From Heterohyrax brucei (taxonomy: Eukaryota; Chordata; Mammalia; Hyracoidea; Procaviidae): a stretch of 64,000 bases of DNA. Location: contig CM053146.1 in NCBI GenBank assembly GCA_028571685.1, positions 111,141,431 to 111,205,430 on the forward strand, given 5' to 3'. Made by a program: the position numbers and the translations under genes. The notes under the pieces are model-generated. The model did not search any database. It was not told the origin of the DNA and saw only the letters and a list, made by a program, of their open reading frames with translations. Below are positions 8,124-57,523 of this stretch, piece after piece (position 1 is the first letter of the stretch; every line of letters begins with the position of its first letter).

Positions 8124-8152
8124 ACACACACACACACACACACACACACACA
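8124..8152. repeat. (CA)n microsatellite
   Basis: About 14 CA units between an AfroSINE and a mariner fold-back. Confidence 0.95.
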
Positions 8153-8639
8153 AGGATGGGCAATTAAGTTCATGAACTCATCCTATAAAAAGCGCTACAT
8201 ACCTGACTGCTGAATATCACTACAATCACCTTCCGAAGCAATTTTGGAACTCTTTTTCTGCAATGTCCATTAGGAATGTTGTCAGACAAGGTCTGACAAT
8301 TAACTTCATGAACTCATCACAGCAAAAGTGCTGGGTGCATGGATTCCCCATGGGAGTACTTTGAAGGTGACTGCAGTAATGAGGCACATAGCACTTTTTC
8401 TAGGATGAGTTCATACACTTAATTGGCAGATCTTGTATGATGACAGATCTGATGAACATTCCAGAAAAAGAGTTCCAAAATTGCTCTGAGGGGTGGACTA
8501 GACACTGGCATTGGAGTACAGCTTGCCAAGGGGAGTACTCTGAAGGTGACTGTAGTGATATTTAGCAATGAAGTAGGTGTGTAGCACTTTTTCTAGGACA
8601 CATTTGCAAACTTAAGTGTCAGGCCTCATATATACAGTT
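8152..8639. mobile_element. Mariner-type fold-back element with a second nested inside
   Basis: Same arms as at 4.1 kb: reverse arm 8152-8280, forward arm about 8455-8639 (attccagaaaaagagttcc). Between them a shorter element with its own caaggtctgacaatta start (about 8288) and aattggcagatcttg end (about 8437) is inserted. A (CA)n tract abuts the left end. Confidence 0.75.
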
Positions 8640-40076: not shown

Positions 40077-40629
40077 TGGGATAGTTAAGTTTGTGTGTCA
40101 ACTTGACTGGGCCATGATTCTCAGTGTTTGGGTAGTTGTACAATGTTATGCCACCTCCACGATGGAATGTGCTGTGGTACCAGCAGTGGTGGGGCCTGTA
40201 GTGGCTCACCACCCCCTCAGCCTTCGTCTCTCTGCCATCTGCCACCGACTTCCTTCCTGCTCACCTGGCCAAGGTTTGGGTTTGTGGATCCAGCAGTTGC
40301 TGCACTCTTGTCCTCTGACACCCAGTTCTTGGGACGTCACGTATCACCTCTTAGGAGTCACTGATCTTCATAGCCTATGAGTAAGAATCCTGTTTCCTTA
40401 CCTGCTGATACTGGGTTTTCCAGGCCCTGCAGCTACATAAATCAGCAGAAACTTTGCAGTCTTGCCTTCTTTGCCTTCTTTCACAGCTTCTGAACAGGAA
40501 CCTTGCTCTCTGGCCTGCTTCCGTTTGATTCGCTGCTTCCATAGCTATGTAAGGTTTGAATTCTGATCCAGGACTTGGGACATTTCAGGTTCTACAATTG
40601 CATGAGCTGTTTGATTTATATAAATCGCT

Positions 40630-40663
<34 letters not shown>

Positions 40664-40685
40664 TTGGCACTTGGCTGGCACACAC

Positions 40686-40730
<45 letters not shown>

Positions 40731-40771
40731 ACTCACTAGTTCTCCTTCTCTGGAGAATCTAGTCTAAGATA
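40077..40771 (+). mobile_element. ERVL-type solo LTR nested in MaLR provirus
   Basis: Starts TGGGATAGTTAAG and ends gtctaagata, with a perfect 5-bp duplication ctctt at 40072-40076 and 40772-40776. Similar to the LTRs of the 47.6-56.4 kb provirus at its 5' end (tcaacttgactgggccatg). A (TA)n(CA)n microsatellite has expanded near its 3' end. Confidence 0.85.
40631..40730. repeat. (TA)n and (CA)n microsatellites in a solo LTR
   Basis: (TA)11 at about 40631-40652, then (CA)n blocks at 40653-40662 and 40680-40729. Confidence 0.95.
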
Positions 40772-46480: not shown

Positions 46481-47617
46481 GAAGTCTTGCTGCTTACACT
46501 GGAAGTGGAAAATTAAATATAAAATTGTAGCTTCCATTTAAGTGGGCACCAAGTTGTCGGTTCAAGTCATTTCTAGAATTTCCTGTAACTCATTCATACT
46601 CAAGAAATGAAAACAAACAAGCAATCATACAAGTGTGGAGCACAACAGAAAACATGTGGTCTATAGAAGCATAATCTTACATTTTCCTTAGCCTGGAAGT
46701 AGTAAGTCCTCCATTTTTCCAGCACCTACAAATGTCCCAAGAGTTCCTACATTTTCAAACAATGATTTTCTGTTTTCTTGGTGTAGTATTCTGTACAATT
46801 TTATTGTTCTACATTCTAAGACCTTGCAGTTAGATTCCCTTACCTGCCTGTGAAATGTCCTTTTGAATCATCTATCACTGGCTTCCAGTAATTGGAGAAT
46901 GTGGACTTGAACATACAGAAGGGCTCAGCATTCTTAAGAGTTTCATTTGTAGTTAACAGTTTTAATCCACAACCGGCAAACTGCTGTCAAAAGTGAAGGC
47001 CAGGTTGTGGGGAATGCCTGAAGGAGAGGCAAGAATTTAATATCAGCAAGGAGCATAGAAAAAGACTAGGAAAACTAGCCCGGAATTTAAGACTAGAAAC
47101 TATATAGTAGGCGTTTCTGGCAAAAATTCTCAAAGCTCCAGAAATTGTCTTTGTAAATCATTAAGTACTTTTAGAATTTGGAAAAATGGCTAACTTGCTC
47201 TATATACTCTCTTTATCATCAGTTTTGAAACTTGGTCTTGCTGAAAGGTGGTAGAGATAGAAGATAGTGTTGGAGGTTACATCAAAACTTACTGTAAAAA
47301 TTAACTACAAATGAACAAGTAGCAAACTGTAATATATAATAGTAATATAAATCAAGACCATAAATGCCTGTAAAGCTATGGACATCCAGCATCATGTGCT
47401 TGCCGCTTGTTTATTGTCAGCAGCAACACTCTCAACATACAAAAGTTTCAAATTAAGATAATCCAAGAAGGAAAAATTGTACTGTCTTACTTTTATTTTG
47501 CTTAAAGGTAATGTCACATGCTTCTTAATTAATGAACTAGATTCATAAGTCTTACTGGTTTATTTAAAATATAATAACTAATTTAAATCTAGGCCTAATT
47601 ATGATAAGGAATATGAC
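46481..47617. other. Intergenic, nothing recognised
   Basis: AT-rich single-copy-looking sequence left of the ERVL provirus. Confidence 0.55.
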
Positions 47618-48187
47618 TGTGGTCTTTAAGGTTGTGTACTAACTTGGCTGGGCCACAGTTCTGTAGTTTGGTAGTAATGTAATGATGTAGCTTGTAAGTT
47701 ATGAAATGGTGTAGCTTGCTTGTTAAGTAATGATATCATTTGGTGTTTAGGTAATGATGTAATCATTCTCCATGACACAATCTGATATGATCATCATCCA
47801 GTCAGTTGTAAGGTGAGTTTTCTCAGGATGATAGTCTACATCCAATAGATAGATGGATGGATGGATGGATGTTCTGACAAAGCTCTTACTTGCTCTGGAT
47901 CCTGCATCTGGCTCATCGTCATCTGACCTCCAGTTCTTGGGCCTTGAGCCACCAGTCTGCCATTTTACCTGCCTATTTTTGACTCATCACACTCTGCAAC
48001 CTGTCAGCTAGTGGCCAGACATCTGACCTGCCCATTTTTGGTTTGTCAACCTAGCCTACAGCTACATGAGTAAGGAGAAACCTCCAACCTGGTGCCTGAA
48101 CATAAACTTAAGACCTGCCAGCCTCTACAGCAGCATGAGTCATTTCCTCGATATAAATCTCTTTTGGTGTGTGTCTGTATAGAATTT
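47618..48187 (+). repeat. 5' LTR of the ERVL provirus
   Basis: Shares with the 3' LTR the series tcattctccatga, cttgctctggatcctgcatc, catctgacct and cagttcttggg. Contains a (GATG)n microsatellite at 47846-47871. Its last about 40 bp do not align to the 3' LTR end, so the 3' boundary is approximate. Confidence 0.8.
47846..47871. repeat. (GATG)n microsatellite in ERVL 5' LTR
   Basis: About five ggat units beginning as gata repeats. Confidence 0.9.
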
Positions 48188-51100
48188 TCAAGTCTGATTG
48201 ATCTTAAATGCGGTGATGACTCTGCCTCCAGTAGTAAAGAGGGCACTGCTAATCCAGGGTGTGAAGTAGCAATATTAATGTGCAAAATATCACCACCAAA
48301 AAATCAATTATTGGTGACAAGCAAGGGTCTGGGTGATTACATGTTTGATACTTTTCTACAATTTTGTGAGAATGAGAAGTATAGGAAAGCTGGTTGATTG
48401 ATCTTACTTTTGATAGGCAAAATGGTAAAAAAAAAAAAATAGGTGAGTTCAGGGCCAGAATCACATCTCAAGCATGACATAAAAGAACTCAAAATTTGCC
48501 CCTTATGCTTTGAAATAAATCCTATTTCTTGCAATAACATCTGATAATGACAACAACCAAACCCAGAATTACAGAGTCAGCTAAATTGTCAACCTCAAAT
48601 AGTGTCTGAACTTAAAATGAGAGCGTTGATTGAGAAGAAGCAGGATGCTGAATATGGCCTTGGTGATAGAAATAATGCCAGAGATAGCATGATGGAGTCT
48701 TGCAAGACTAATGACTCCTTCACTGCAAATACTTTTTTTAACCAACACAAATGATGACTGTACATATGGAGCTCACCGGATGGAATAAATGGGAGCCAAA
48801 TCAACTACATCTGTGGAAAAAGATGATGGAAAAGCTCCATATCAGCAGTCAGAACAAGACCAGGTGCTGAGTGCTGCACAGATCATCAACTGTTCATATG
48901 CAAACTCAAGTTGAAACTGAAAAAAAAAATTAGAACAAGTCCAGAAGACCCAAAGTATGACCTTGAGTATAGCCCTCCTGAGTTTAAGGACTATCTCAAG
49001 AACAGATTTGATGTGTTGACCACTAATAACTGAAGACCAGACAAATTGTGGAATGACATCAAAGACATCATCCATGAAGAGAGCAAGAGGTCATTAAAAA
49101 GACAGGAAACAAGGAAAAGACCAAACTGGATATCAGAAGAGACTCTGAAACTTGCTATTGAACATCAAGCAGCTAAAGCAAAAGGAAGGAATCATGAAGT
49201 AAAAGACCTAAACAGAAGATTTCAAAGAGCATCTTGAGAAGACAAAAGAAAGTGTTACAATAAGAGCTGGAAATCAAAACCATAAAGGAAGAACACAGTC
49301 TGCATTTCTCAAGCTGAAAAAATTGAAGCCTCAAATTTCAGTAGCGAATGATTCTACAGGGAAAATATTAAATGACTCAGGGAGCACCAAAAGAAAACGG
49401 AAGGAATACACAGAGGCACTATACCAGAAAAAACAGGTTGATGTTTAGCCATTTGAAGAGGTAGCATATGATCAGGAGCCTATGGTACTGAAGGAAGAAG
49501 TTGAAGCTGCATTGAAGGCGTTGGCAAAAAAACAAGGCTCCAGAAACTGATGGAATATCAACTGAGATGTTTCAACAATTGATGCAGCACTGAAAGTGCT
49601 GACTTGTCTATGCCAAGAAATTTGGAGGACAGCTACCTGGCCAACTGACTGGAAGAGATCCGTATTTATGCCCATTCCAAAGAAAGGTCCTCCAACCGAA
49701 TGCAGAAATTAACCCAACAATGTAGTTAATATCACATGCAAGTAAAATTCTGCCCAAGATCATTCAAAAGTGACTGTAACAGTATATTGACAAGGAACGG
49801 CCAGAAATTCAAGATGGATTCAGAAGAGGACGTGGAACCAGGGATATCATTGCTGATGTCAGATGGATCTTGGTTGAAAGCAGAGAATACCAGAGAGATG
49901 TCTACTTGCGTTTCACTGACTATGCAAAGGTATTCAACTGTGTGGATCATAACAAATTATGGCTAACACTGCAGAGAATGGGAATTCCAGAACACTTAAT
50001 TATGCTCTTAAGGAATCTGCCTATGGATCAAGAGGCAGTCGTGCAAACAGAACAAGGGCATGCTGCATAGTTTAAAGTCAGGAAAGATGTGTGTCAGGGT
50101 TGTATCCTTTTACCATAATTTTTCAATCTGTATGATAAGCACATAATCCGAGAAGCTGGATTATACGAAGAAGAACAAGGCATCGGGAATGGAGGACAAC
50201 TCATTAACAACCTGTGTTATGCAGACGACACTATCTTACTTGCTAAAAGTGAAGAAGATTTAAAACACTTAGTGATGAAGATCAAGGACCACAGACTTCA
50301 ATATGGATTGCACTTCAACATTAAGAAAACAGAATCCTCACAACTGGACCAGTAAGCAAAACCATCATAAATGGAGAAAGATTGAGGTTGTCAAGGATTT
50401 CATTTTACTTGGGTCCACAGTTAACACCCATGGAAGCAGCAGTCAAGAAATCAAAAGATATGTTGTGTTGAGAAAATCTGATGCGAAAGGTCTCTTTAAA
50501 GTATTGAAAAGTAAAGATATCACCTGACCCAAGCCCTGGTATTTTCAGTTGTATCATATGCACACAAAAGCTGGACAGTGAACAAAGAAGACAGAAGAAT
50601 TGATGCCTTTGAATTGTAGTGTTGGAGAAGAATGTTGAATGTACCACGGACCACCAAAAGAACAGACAGATCTGTTCTGGAAGAAGTACAACCAGAGTGC
50701 TCCTTGGAAGCAAAGATGATAAGACTGTGTCTTACATACTTTGGACATGTTTTCTGGAAGAATCAGTCCTGGAGAAGGACATCATGGTTGGTAGAGTGGA
50801 GGAAAAGTGAAAAGAAAGAAGACCTTTTGAATTGACATAGTGGCCACAACAGTGGGCTTAAGCATAAAAACGACTGTGGGCATGGCACAAGACTGGGCAG
50901 TGTTTTGTTCTGTTGTGCATAGGGTTGCTGTAAGTTGGAACTGACTCGATGGTACCTAATAACAACAACAGGATCCTGAAATTTAGGATGGTGACAGATG
51001 GGCAGATAATCAGGAAGCTACGGACACAGAGGCCCTTAATTCTATTGACTCATTCCTGCCAGAAAAACAAGACCTCTCACTCCCACCTGGAAAAGTTACT

Positions 51101-52550
51101 CCATCTTTGTCTGCTAAGCCACTCTTCCCAGCAAAAAAAAACCATTATCCCTTTGACCCCCATATGATGAGATTAACCCAGCTGTGTCTGAAGAACCTTT
51201 GTCTGAAATACCACTTAGGGTGATGTCTGAGTTGTTTCATGGGGCACCACCTCACATAGATGCATTATAAGACGTTGCTGAATGTTCGCAGGACCAACTC
51301 CCATAACCCATTTCTGCTTCTAGATCTATAACTTAAGTCCCAGCAAGATCCAAAAGGTGAAGTATGAAGTGTTATCCAGGAGCAAGTATGCTGTACTCCT
51401 AAAGAACTGCTTGACTTTTCTAACAAATGGAAACCTTGGAAACATGTGTGGGAGTGGCTACTGAGAGTGTGGGATAATGGTACAGGGAATATAAAGTTGG
51501 ATTGGTCTGAGTTTATTGATATGGGTCCACTAAGCTCAGATTCTTCATTCAATATTTCAGCTTGAGATTTAGGAAAGGACTTGATTATTTGGTTGCATCA
51601 CTGAAGCATGGATTATGCAGCAGCCTATGTTAAATCAAGTTGAAGTACCAGACTCTCTTGGCATACGATTGAAGAAGATAACCAAAGGCAGGGGGGAACT
51701 GGCATGTTAGACTGGATTTATGAGGTTAGACCCCCAGATCCATTTAAGAAGTGCCCAGAAGACATACCTTTGACCACAACAATGAGGAACAAATTTGTGA
51801 AGGGAGCTTCACCATCCTTGAAGACTGTGGTGATTGCTATTTTATGTAAGTCAGATTTGACAATGGGAACTACCTTAACTGTATTAAGACTCCTAACTAC
51901 AACGGGGCTGATTGGACTCCATGATGGAAGGGGCCACATGACAGCACTCAGTCAACAAAGACAAGGTGTGCATAGTTACTGTGATTAACAATGGGATCAA
52001 AGCAATAATCAGAATAGTCTAACTCATATAGACTCATGACTTTGGCTACTTAATCATAATGTCCTTAGGAGTGAATTAAATGGGGAAATCTAGTAACTAT
52101 TTACTTGATCTGTGTAAGTGGAAGAATTCTAAGTCAAGTGAACTGAAGTCTAACTTGAATCTCCAATCTTCAATCAATTCCCAGGTTGAGGAAGCTTATA
52201 GACCCACAACTCCATCAATGAAGGGGAAGCCAGTTTCCCTTGAGGAAAGATCCCACTACAAAGCCTAAAATTTATACTGTTAATCTTTCTCTCAGCCTTC
52301 CCCGAAAGGATTGACAACATTTTACAAGACTGACTGTTCACCGAGGAAAAGGAAAAATAATCAAACTTTTTGGGGGTTACTGTATACTTGGTCTGAACTG
52401 ACACTAACTCTAGGAGACCCAAGATGCCACTGTGACACACCAGTCAAAGTGGAGGCGTGTGGAGGTCAGGTTATTAATGGAGTCTTGGCTCATGTTCATC
52501 TCACAGTAGGTTCAGTGGGTCCATGAACCCTTCCTGTAATGATTTTCCCA
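48188..52550 (+). pseudogene. ERVL gag-like region remnant (split by RTE insertion)
   Basis: Internal proviral sequence preceding pol, interrupted by the RTE element at 48654-50968. Its longest open stretch (51704-51988, 94 codons) is closed on both sides by stops. Assignment to gag rests on position between the 5' LTR and the recognisable RT region; no diagnostic motif survives that I can name with certainty. Confidence 0.5.
48654..50968 (+). mobile_element. RTE-type LINE inserted in ERVL provirus, with TSD
   Basis: 2.3-kb 5'-truncated sense copy, ending taataacaacaa. TSD caggatgctgaa (48641-48652) and caggatcctgaa (50969-50980), one mismatch in 12. It retains the end of the endonuclease region, the linker and the RT, with the catalytic box YADD intact at 50218-50229 (context NLCYADDTILLA), but frames are broken elsewhere. 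Confidence 0.92.
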
Positions 52551-54829: not shown

Positions 54830-55813
54830 ATTCCAAAGAGAAGAATTCTACCACCTAGAGACACAATGTGAATTCTGTTGAACAGGAAGTTAAAAATGTC
54901 ACCTGATCACTTTGGGCTCATCATGCTAATCACTAACATACCTTGTGATTAAAGTCCGTGGAAAACTACGGCAACCCAATTCTGATATAGCAGCTAATGT
55001 CCCACACCCTTCAGGAATGAAGGTTTGGGTCACCTCATCAGACAAAGAAACATGACCAGCTGAGGTGCTTGCTGAAGATAAAGGGAATATAGAACAGGCA
55101 GTTGAGAAAGGTAATTCTAAATACCTGTTACAATCATGTGACCACTTGCAGAAACAAGAACTCTAATTGTTATGAGTACTTCTTCCTTGTACGTGTGCAT
55201 CAAATATTTTTATCTTCACTTAAGAGGTAAACAGGGCTAGTGTGTTTTTGGTTGTATTCACATTAAGTATATCATGTTAGGTACAAGTATGACTTTGTCT
55301 TTAGAGATTGATGGTTTAAGGAGATACCAAGTTTACAAGGGATGGACGGTGATAGTTAAGGCTATGTGTCAAATTTACTGGACCATGATTCTCAGTGGTT
55401 TGGCAGTTATATGATGTAGTTTTGCAGTTATGTAATCATGAGATCTGGCAGTTATGGAATGATATGGTCATTCTCCATGATGTGATCTGATGTGATCAGC
55501 CAATCAGCTGTAAGGGGAGTCTCTTCAGGGGCATAGTCTCCATCCAATAAATATATGGGTGTTCTGGCGAAGTTCATTCACTTGCTCTGGATCCTGCATC
55601 CAGCTTGTCATCATCTGACCTCTGGTTCTTGGGACTTGAGCCAGTGGTCTGCCGTTTTATCTGTCAGTCTTGGGATTTGTTGGTCTCCACAGCCTGTGAG
55701 CCTGCAGCTTGCTGTCTTACCTGCTGATCTTGGATTTGTCAGCCTGCACAGCTTGTGAGCCAGTAGCCTGCCATCTGATCTGCTCAAACAGAAAAAGTAA
55801 CAAATTAAGAGGG

Positions 55814-55990
55814 TTTCATGCAAAAGCATCTGTTTGATACTTAGGCTGGCTTCTCTGGAGAAACAAAACCAGTAAAGCATATATAAATATACAGAGAATT
55901 TTTTTCTCAAAGAAATGGCTCTTGACGTTGTAGATCTGGCAAGTCCCAAGTCCGTGGATCAGGCACTAGTCTGGATGCTTCTCCTGACTC
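55814..55990 (-). repeat. Inverted copy of the LTR 3' end plus flank
   Basis: Reverse complement of 56247-56428: it matches the last 150 bp of the LTR and continues for about 25 bp into the non-LTR flank (atgcaaaagcat followed by ctgtttg). Including host flank shows it was copied from this locus. Confidence 0.85.
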
Positions 55991-55995
55991 ACTGA

Positions 55996-56195
55996 GCACT
56001 GAGATGAGAGCTGTTGCTGTTACAACTACTGTCAGAATTAATATTATTATTATTGTTCCCCAACAGAAATAGGTGGGAATATAAGAAAAAGAATTTAATC
56101 AAAAAGTATGAACTTTTTGTTGACTACATCTTTTATATTTTTCTACTTTTTATTTACAAGATTCTTAAGCATACAAAAATGAACCTCCATATAAA
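55996..56195 (+). repeat. Direct copy of downstream sequence 56652-56854
   Basis: Collinear with 56652-56854 at roughly 80-85% identity by eye (shared gcactgagatga start, ttgttccccaacagaaata-type core, aaaaagtatgaacttt, tttttctactttttattta, gaacctccatataaa end). Confidence 0.85.
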
Positions 56196-56651
56196 CAATG
56201 GACAGTAAACAATAGAGAGGGTTCATCAGCCCCTACAGCTACATGCGTCAGGGGAAGCATGTAGATTAATGCCTGATCCATGGACTTGGAACTTGTCAGA
56301 ATCTACAACTTCAAGAACCATTTCTTTAAGAAAAATTTCTCTGTGTATTCATATAGGCTTTATTGGTTTTGCTTCTGCAGAGAAGCCAGCCTAAGACAGT
56401 GACCAAACAGATTTCATGCTTTTGCATAAATGTAATTATTACTGTCTCCTTATTAAATGAAATTTGCTAGAGTGGAGAGCTTTGTAAATAATTTATGTTA
56501 TTTAGTAGTTTAGTAAACTTACCAAGACACTTTCTTACCCTAAGGCTGTGTTCCCTCAGTGAATAAATGGGGCTTATGATGGTACTTACTTCATTGGTAT
56601 GAGGTTATGAGGGTCAACCTTTGTGCCAGTATGGAGTCTGGCACAAAACAG

Positions 56652-56854
56652 GCACTGAGATGAAAGCCATTGCTATTGTAACTACTATCAAGTATTACTA
56701 TTATTCTTATAGTTCCCCAGCAGAAATAGCTAGGAATATAAGAAAATGAATAACCAAAAAGTATGAACTTTAGATGAATACACCTTTTACAATATATTTT
56801 TCTACTTTTTATTTAGAAGATTCTTAAATATACAAAAGTGAACCTCCATATAAA
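56652..56854 (+). repeat. Source copy of the duplicated 200-bp segment
   Basis: Downstream partner of 55996-56195, lying outside the provirus. Confidence 0.8.
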
Positions 56855-57003
56855 TAGCCTCTAGCTTAGAACAGTTACCATCATTTTCACACATTTTACT
56901 TTTTCTATTTCTAACTTTATTTTTTTTCTGGAATATTTTAAAGGAAAATTTTCAAACTATGTCATTCGACCTGTAAATTATTTAGCATGCATCTCTAAGC
57001 TGT

Positions 57004-57150
57004 TAAGTGTTCAGCTTCTAACTGAAAGATCTGTAGTTTGAATCCACCAGACATTCCTTGGAAACTCAGTGGGATAATTCTACTCTGTCCTATAGAGTTA
57101 CTATGAGTTTGAATCAATTCAACTGCAATGGGTTTGGTTTGTTGTTTGTC
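57004..57150 (+). mobile_element. AfroSINE, sense, 5'-truncated
   Basis: gtgttcagcttctaactg start; ctactctgtcctatagag and aactgcaatgggtttggt end. Confidence 0.85.
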
Positions 57151-57523
57151 TAAACTGGTAATGGTTGTTTTAAAAATATAGCCACCATACAAAATTAAAA
57201 AGATGTCCTTAAGCTCTTCTAACACCTACTTCATATTAAATTTCCATCTTTTTGTAGTTGATTTGTTTAAATCAGGATGCAAAGTCTGTATATTTCGTAT
57301 GTTTGTTGTGTCTCTTAAATTTTTAAAATGATCTTCCTTTTTGTTTTCAAATGCCATTGATACAGAAATCAGTTCACCTGTCCTCGGTGCGACTGCTTTC
57401 TTCTTTGTGGTGGTAACTTCTCAGCCCTCTGTATTTTTTGTGGTTTATTTTTAAGTCTAGAAACTTGATTAGATTCAGATTCTTTTTTTTTTTTTCCTTT
57501 AGTGAGAAATATGTCTTAAAAGG

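Follow-up and report, generated by a model that had tools for sequence, protein, structure and literature searches.

Complex templated insertions have been described in the human germline, making up 33 of 103 germline calls in one person and 26 of 99 in another, according to the MMB-TI report (PMC8421209); in one human case given there, a reverse copy comes first and is followed by forward copying from two further templates. Short-range reverse-copied segments are also catalogued in great apes, with a median length of 12 and a maximum of 128 bases in the figures given, and the same source states that an intra-strand switch requires an already copied template (PMC7954356). The MMBIR model, as outlined in its original account, was built on mixed direct and inverted duplications with microhomologies of 2-5 bp (PMC2621351).

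The locus studied here lies in a 64-kb stretch of DNA from the hyrax Heterohyrax brucei (64,000 nucleotides, referred to below as the window), within the 3′ LTR of a likely endogenous provirus. This LTR contains an insert of ~430 bp, which consists, in order, of an inverted copy of the LTR's own end together with ~30 bases of host flank, a direct copy of sequence from farther downstream and a piece of ~23 bases. It is an insertion of the same kind as the published complex templated insertions, as far as the published accounts describe them, though it is longer than the great-ape events (PMC7954356) and old. As in the MMB-TI events of human germline and cancer, an inverted local copy is followed by forward copying and a return to the original template. 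The hyrax event differs from those in that report in its age (about 13% divergence), in its site within a retroviral LTR and in the size of its pieces (about 177 and 200 bp), the search described there having taken inverted copies within 100 bp of their templates (PMC8421209). The four-point switches of great apes likewise consist of a local reverse-complement copy of neighboring sequence that creates an inverted repeat; as set out in that source, one reverse-copied segment lies between two switches, whereas here a further forward-copied segment follows (PMC7954356). Serial switches and a mixture of inverted and direct duplications are also features of the MMBIR/FoSTeS rearrangements of human genomic disorders, whose junctions have short microhomologies, although the cases presented involve the duplication of whole genes such as PLP1, compared to a few hundred bases here (PMC2621351). 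Lastly, the 5′ inversions that twin priming produces in L1 also place an inverted upstream piece before a direct downstream piece (PMC2912911, PMC12016303). In contrast to the L1 insertions these papers deal with, the hyrax insert has no A-tail and non-L1 cargo, and its source is the target locus. The locus itself was not met among titles and opening lines of abstracts on endogenous-retrovirus template switching or afrotherian ERV-L, and may still be in print.

The provirus and the insert in its 3′ LTR

The features of the locus, in window coordinates, are the following.

47613..47617, + strand: putative target-site duplication (5 bp, atgac) on the left side of the provirus; start of the LTR placed by eye
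47618..48187, + strand: putative 5′ LTR belonging to the same provirus; insert absent (from alignment with the 3′ LTR)
50119..50352, + strand: stop-to-stop piece in the provirus interior with a reverse-transcriptase match (Pfam RVT_1)
about 55350-56398, + strand: 3′ LTR, whole
55350..55786, + strand: 3′ LTR body before the insert (aligns with 47618-48036)
55787..55814, + strand: left junction stretch, absent from the 5′ LTR and similar at its end to 56204-56223
55815..55837, - strand: inverted host-flank copy; source 56399-56429, just outside the 3′ LTR
55838..55991, - strand: inverted copy of the 3′ LTR end; source 56244-56398
55996..56195, + strand: direct copy of downstream sequence; source 56652-56854
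56196..56219, + strand: short piece absent from the 5′ LTR; together with the native LTR bases that follow, its end resembles the left junction
56220..56398, + strand: true 3′ LTR end, aligning with 48040-48187; its part 56244-56398 is the source of the inverted copy
56399..56430, + strand: host flank; gtgac, the putative target-site duplication, stands at its start, and the inverted flank part was copied from it
56652..56854, + strand: downstream source of the direct copy

The stretches 47618-48187 and 55350-56398 are likely, short of proof, to be the two ends of one provirus, since they have the same orientation, RVT_1 matches lie between them, a purine-rich stretch directly precedes 55350 and the flanking 5-mers, atgac and gtgac (56399-56403), match at 4 of 5 bases. 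We take the family to be ERVL, which presumably makes target-site duplications of this 5-bp size. The RVT_1 match at 50119-50352 scored 30.5 bits against a cut-off of 29.6 (E 3.8e-7), and a weaker one at 49780-50067 fell below it (18.8 bits). Profile searches covered 20 of the 23 plus-strand stop-to-stop pieces (at least 55 amino acids) of the interior. The other matches in these 20 pieces, to five families with one each in five pieces, were all below their cut-offs, and no match to integrase, or to the dUTPase that goes with an ERVL-type pol, was obtained among them at E 0.1. Among solved structures there was no match to the largest stop-to-stop piece of the interior (51644-51985), and no Rfam family reached its gathering score in the window.

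Two related LTR stretches in the window, at 47618-48187 and 40080-40648, do not contain the insert; 56220-56398 is therefore the true end of the 3′ LTR and about 55787-56219 (433 bases) is extra. The putative 5′ LTR runs through the insertion point; 48002-48034 aligns with 55754-55786 and 48040-48120 with 56220-56298, with five bases of its own between the two. BLAST yielded the same two parts, the first running on to 48106 and thus overlapping the second. The stretch at 40080-40648 aligns piecewise on both sides of the insertion point, with two weak pieces (E 0.009) and one out of order. Tandem-like units of ~60 bases in the LTR make the alignment near the insertion point partly ambiguous; 48000-48090 as a whole also fits 55693-55776 (score 45), while its halves taken apart score 38 at 55754-55786 and 43 at 56220-56256. 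The alignment with the LTR at 47.6-48.2 kb bears on two statements of a preliminary description of this DNA, made from the sequence alone. The extra sequence in the 3′ LTR that it reported is present, but begins near 55787 rather than at 55814, and the 'about 50 bp of other sequence' that it placed ahead of the true LTR end is reduced to a foreign part of about 56196-56219 only, 56220 onward aligning with the LTR.

Two features of the LTR sequences themselves were also noted. The 3′ LTR body has three tandem-like copies at a spacing of 59-60 bases (55637-55782), where the alignment with the 5′ LTR is gapped, as if the latter had fewer units. The same-family stretch at 40080-40770, without an insert at the homologous point, has a long TA/CA simple repeat near its end.

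The copied pieces, their sources and their junctions

When 55200-57200 was compared to the whole window by BLASTN, 55815-55991 matched the inverse of 56430-56244 with 81.9% identity over 188 columns including gaps (E 9e-47), and 55996-56195 matched 56652-56854 in direct orientation with 84.0% identity over 206 columns (E 5e-57). Both pairs were recovered in pieces by a separate repeat search, which gave a spacing of 655-659 bp between the direct copy and its source. Counting aligned letters only, 133 of 153 sites are identical in the LTR part of the inverted arm (86.9%) and 173 of 197 in the direct copy (87.8%). Both features had been seen in the preliminary description, the inverted copy of the LTR end and the direct copy taken from ~660 bp farther down, and these alignments bear them out. 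A third copy of the 200-bp piece was not found in the 64-kb window at E 1e-3, a search that excludes only very abundant families, and the piece is absent from both related LTR stretches (local scores of 20 and 31, respectively, vs. 273 for the true source). The final 62 bases of the direct copy match better than the rest of it (93.5% vs. 85.2% identity), as a gene-conversion patch might, but not significantly so (p 0.11).

The inverted copy crosses the LTR end (56398) into the host flank. This had been proposed from the shared atgcaaaagcat and ctgtttg, and the match survives proper alignment with shuffle and tile controls. The local score of the flank alone (33; query 55790-55838) was equalled in 1 of 5000 shuffles, and among 18210 overlapping 50-base tiles taken from both strands of the window, with those near the two sites left out, none scored as high. 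Two 5-base gaps interrupt the match, one of them adjoining the LTR end at about the position of the putative target-site duplication. Past atgc, in the direction of 55787, no significant flank match was seen (1573 of 5000 shuffles as good). In the source, the inverted copy starts at a short flank palindrome, atgcttttgcat, within 56399..56430. Since the inverted copy carries host flank, it was made after the provirus integrated, as the preliminary description had argued. The flank copy at 55815-55837 lacks ~5 bases beside the LTR end, roughly those of the putative target-site duplication, perhaps through a chance deletion.

The arms, of ~175 bp with ~250 bp between them, were found by repeat search, BLASTN and folding alike, in agreement with the inverted repeat reported earlier. 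Because they form an inverted repeat, 55786-56450 folds as a long imperfect hairpin (-287.5 kcal/mol vs. a mean of -146.6 for 20 shuffles, z -18.7), which is no evidence of function. If transcribed, the predicted RNA hairpin would be a possible editing substrate.

The stretches at the two borders of the insert (55787-55814 and 56196-56219), about 25 bases each, are absent from the 5′ LTR and from both main pieces and have no clear source. With the few bases that follow them, they share an imperfect direct repeat of ~24 bases, agtaacaaattaagagggtttcat and agtaaacaatagagagggttcat, which scored 24 for 55786-55816 vs. 56196-56230 (27 of 5000 shuffles) and 25 with other limits (13 of 5000). The border stretches were also considered as further inverted copies of the flank, a reading that was not supported (1154, 2248 and 1573 of 5000 shuffles were as good), the direct repeat being better supported. 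This repeat can be read as a re-landing slightly upstream under template switching, or as a target-site duplication under retrotransposition. Between the two main pieces, the 7-mer cactgag occurs twice in tandem (55990-56003). Candidate microhomologies picked out by eye are tca or cat at the first junction, ca/gca at the second and aaa at the third; microhomologies of 2-3 bases are indistinguishable from chance at ~13% divergence and prove nothing at such an age. The sequence after 56195, caatggacagtaaacaatagag, contains no poly(A) tail.

Divergence and timing

The two pieces have diverged equally from their sources (K2P 0.145 ± 0.034 for the inverted LTR part and 0.134 ± 0.028 for the direct copy; Fisher p 0.87), which fits a single event for both, without proving it. 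The pooled pieces are far less diverged than the two LTRs are from each other (K2P 0.139 ± 0.022, n = 350, vs. 0.311 ± 0.031, n = 514, respectively; z 4.6). Judged by these distances, the insert is far more recent than the separation of the two LTRs, and the event would have occurred at about 45% of the age of the provirus, if rates were alike. Read as such, the locus would be a legible fossil of a germline rearrangement with several switches, for which the divergence of the two LTRs gives a date relative to the provirus. Rearrangements of this kind, usually catalogued in patients or between close relatives, would then be recognizable after long times in repeats of known plan.

One comparison counts against the simple picture, since equal rates are expected after one copying event. 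Of the 12 sites that are informative with respect to the 5′ LTR, 10 have retained its base in the inverted arm and 2 in the resident arm (p 0.039, uncorrected). This comparison was made on a four-way alignment from which the first four columns and all gapped columns were left out; both arms jointly differ from the 5′ LTR at 25 sites, and the corresponding comparison with the 40-kb LTR gave 2 and 3 sites. We attribute the asymmetry to chance or to uneven decay; an arm with a different origin would fit it as well.

Proposed template switching and alternative explanations

Serial template switching of the FoSTeS/MMBIR type is the best explanation of these data, and in our judgment probably the correct one, although it is not proven. 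One faulty germ-line replication or break-repair event, occurring after the provirus had integrated and aged, would have introduced ~430 bp into the 3′ LTR. In plus-strand order, the new strand would have departed from the LTR near 55786-55816 and been synthesized in reverse along the LTR end and its flank, from 56430 to 56244, before switching to 56652 and running forward to 56854. It would then have rejoined the LTR near, and perhaps slightly upstream of, its exit point, generating the short direct repeat at the borders. If synthesis ran from right to left instead, the reverse segment would already have been copied once, making a fold-back onto the nascent strand possible. We infer the single event, the direction of synthesis and the FoSTeS/MMBIR-like pathway. 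Both main pieces are templated from sources within 1.1 kb, and a switch of orientation is combined with the use of more than one template, as is characteristic of template switching. Against this explanation, the pieces (about 177 and 200 bp) exceed the short-range great-ape events, and a target-site duplication is another possible reading of the weak direct repeat around the insert. Template switching had been put forward in the preliminary description, whose three structural claims hold; its mechanism stands as the best explanation only, since the same arrangement of pieces results from twin priming, or from a tandem duplication with later inversion and deletion.

Twin-primed retrotransposition is an unlikely origin for the insert. 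Here, an RNA that began in the LTR and continued into the flank would have served a LINE enzyme as template, and the product would have landed in the LTR from which it came; an inverted 5′ piece, a direct 3′ piece and a target-site duplication would result. The order of parts is that of 5′ inversions, a gap in the source (56431-56651) separates the two pieces and the near-repeat of ~24 bases (scores 24-25, with the shuffle counts given above) flanks the insert. In contrast, the A-tail missing after 56195 was present in 94% of human insertions in one survey, where 5′ inversions were reported in 18-22% of L1 insertions and 13% of processed pseudogenes, compared to 0.02% for Alu and 0% for SVA, in the figures presented (PMC12016303); tailless retropseudogenes with target-site duplications are nonetheless described (PMC5322556). 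The insert also lies within 1.1 kb of its own source, where a mechanism that acts genome-wide would presumably hardly ever place it. A local form of this pathway, in which a read-through transcript of LTR and flank was twin-primed into a break in its own LTR, strikes us as quite unlikely; if true, the element would have been rebuilt from its own RNA at its own locus.

It is likewise rather improbable that the insert arose in two or more events, through a tandem duplication of ~659 bp (roughly 56196-56854), with part of the first copy then inverted and ~220 bp lost. The 655-659 bp spacing of the direct copy and the short repeat at the borders match the duplication junction expected in this case. 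More steps are needed, however, as further rearrangements have to fall within one copy, and the equal divergence of the pieces leaves little time for successive steps. Independent insertions of dispersed repeats, with the inverted arm as another LTR fragment of the same family and the 200-bp piece as a repeat present twice, are highly improbable, for although the related LTR stretches at 40080-40648 and 47618-48187 and the slightly greater closeness of the inverted arm to the 5′ LTR (10 vs. 2 sites) are in keeping with them, the shared host flank (0 of 18210 tiles), the equal divergence and near-direct abutment of the pieces and, within the limits given above, the lack of a third copy in the window all argue against them.

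Under the template-switching explanation, an odd internal segment in an LTR is not necessarily the mark of a recombinant virus. A single case leaves current understanding unchanged.

Two other repeat structures were observed in the window. Three overlapping inverted repeats, with arms of 40-102 bases that are 76-83% complementary, occupy about 430 bases at 8147-8578. Farther downstream of the provirus, 56998-57156 is a short interspersed repeat with eight further matches in the window, on both strands (BLASTN); we take it to resemble an afrotherian SINE.
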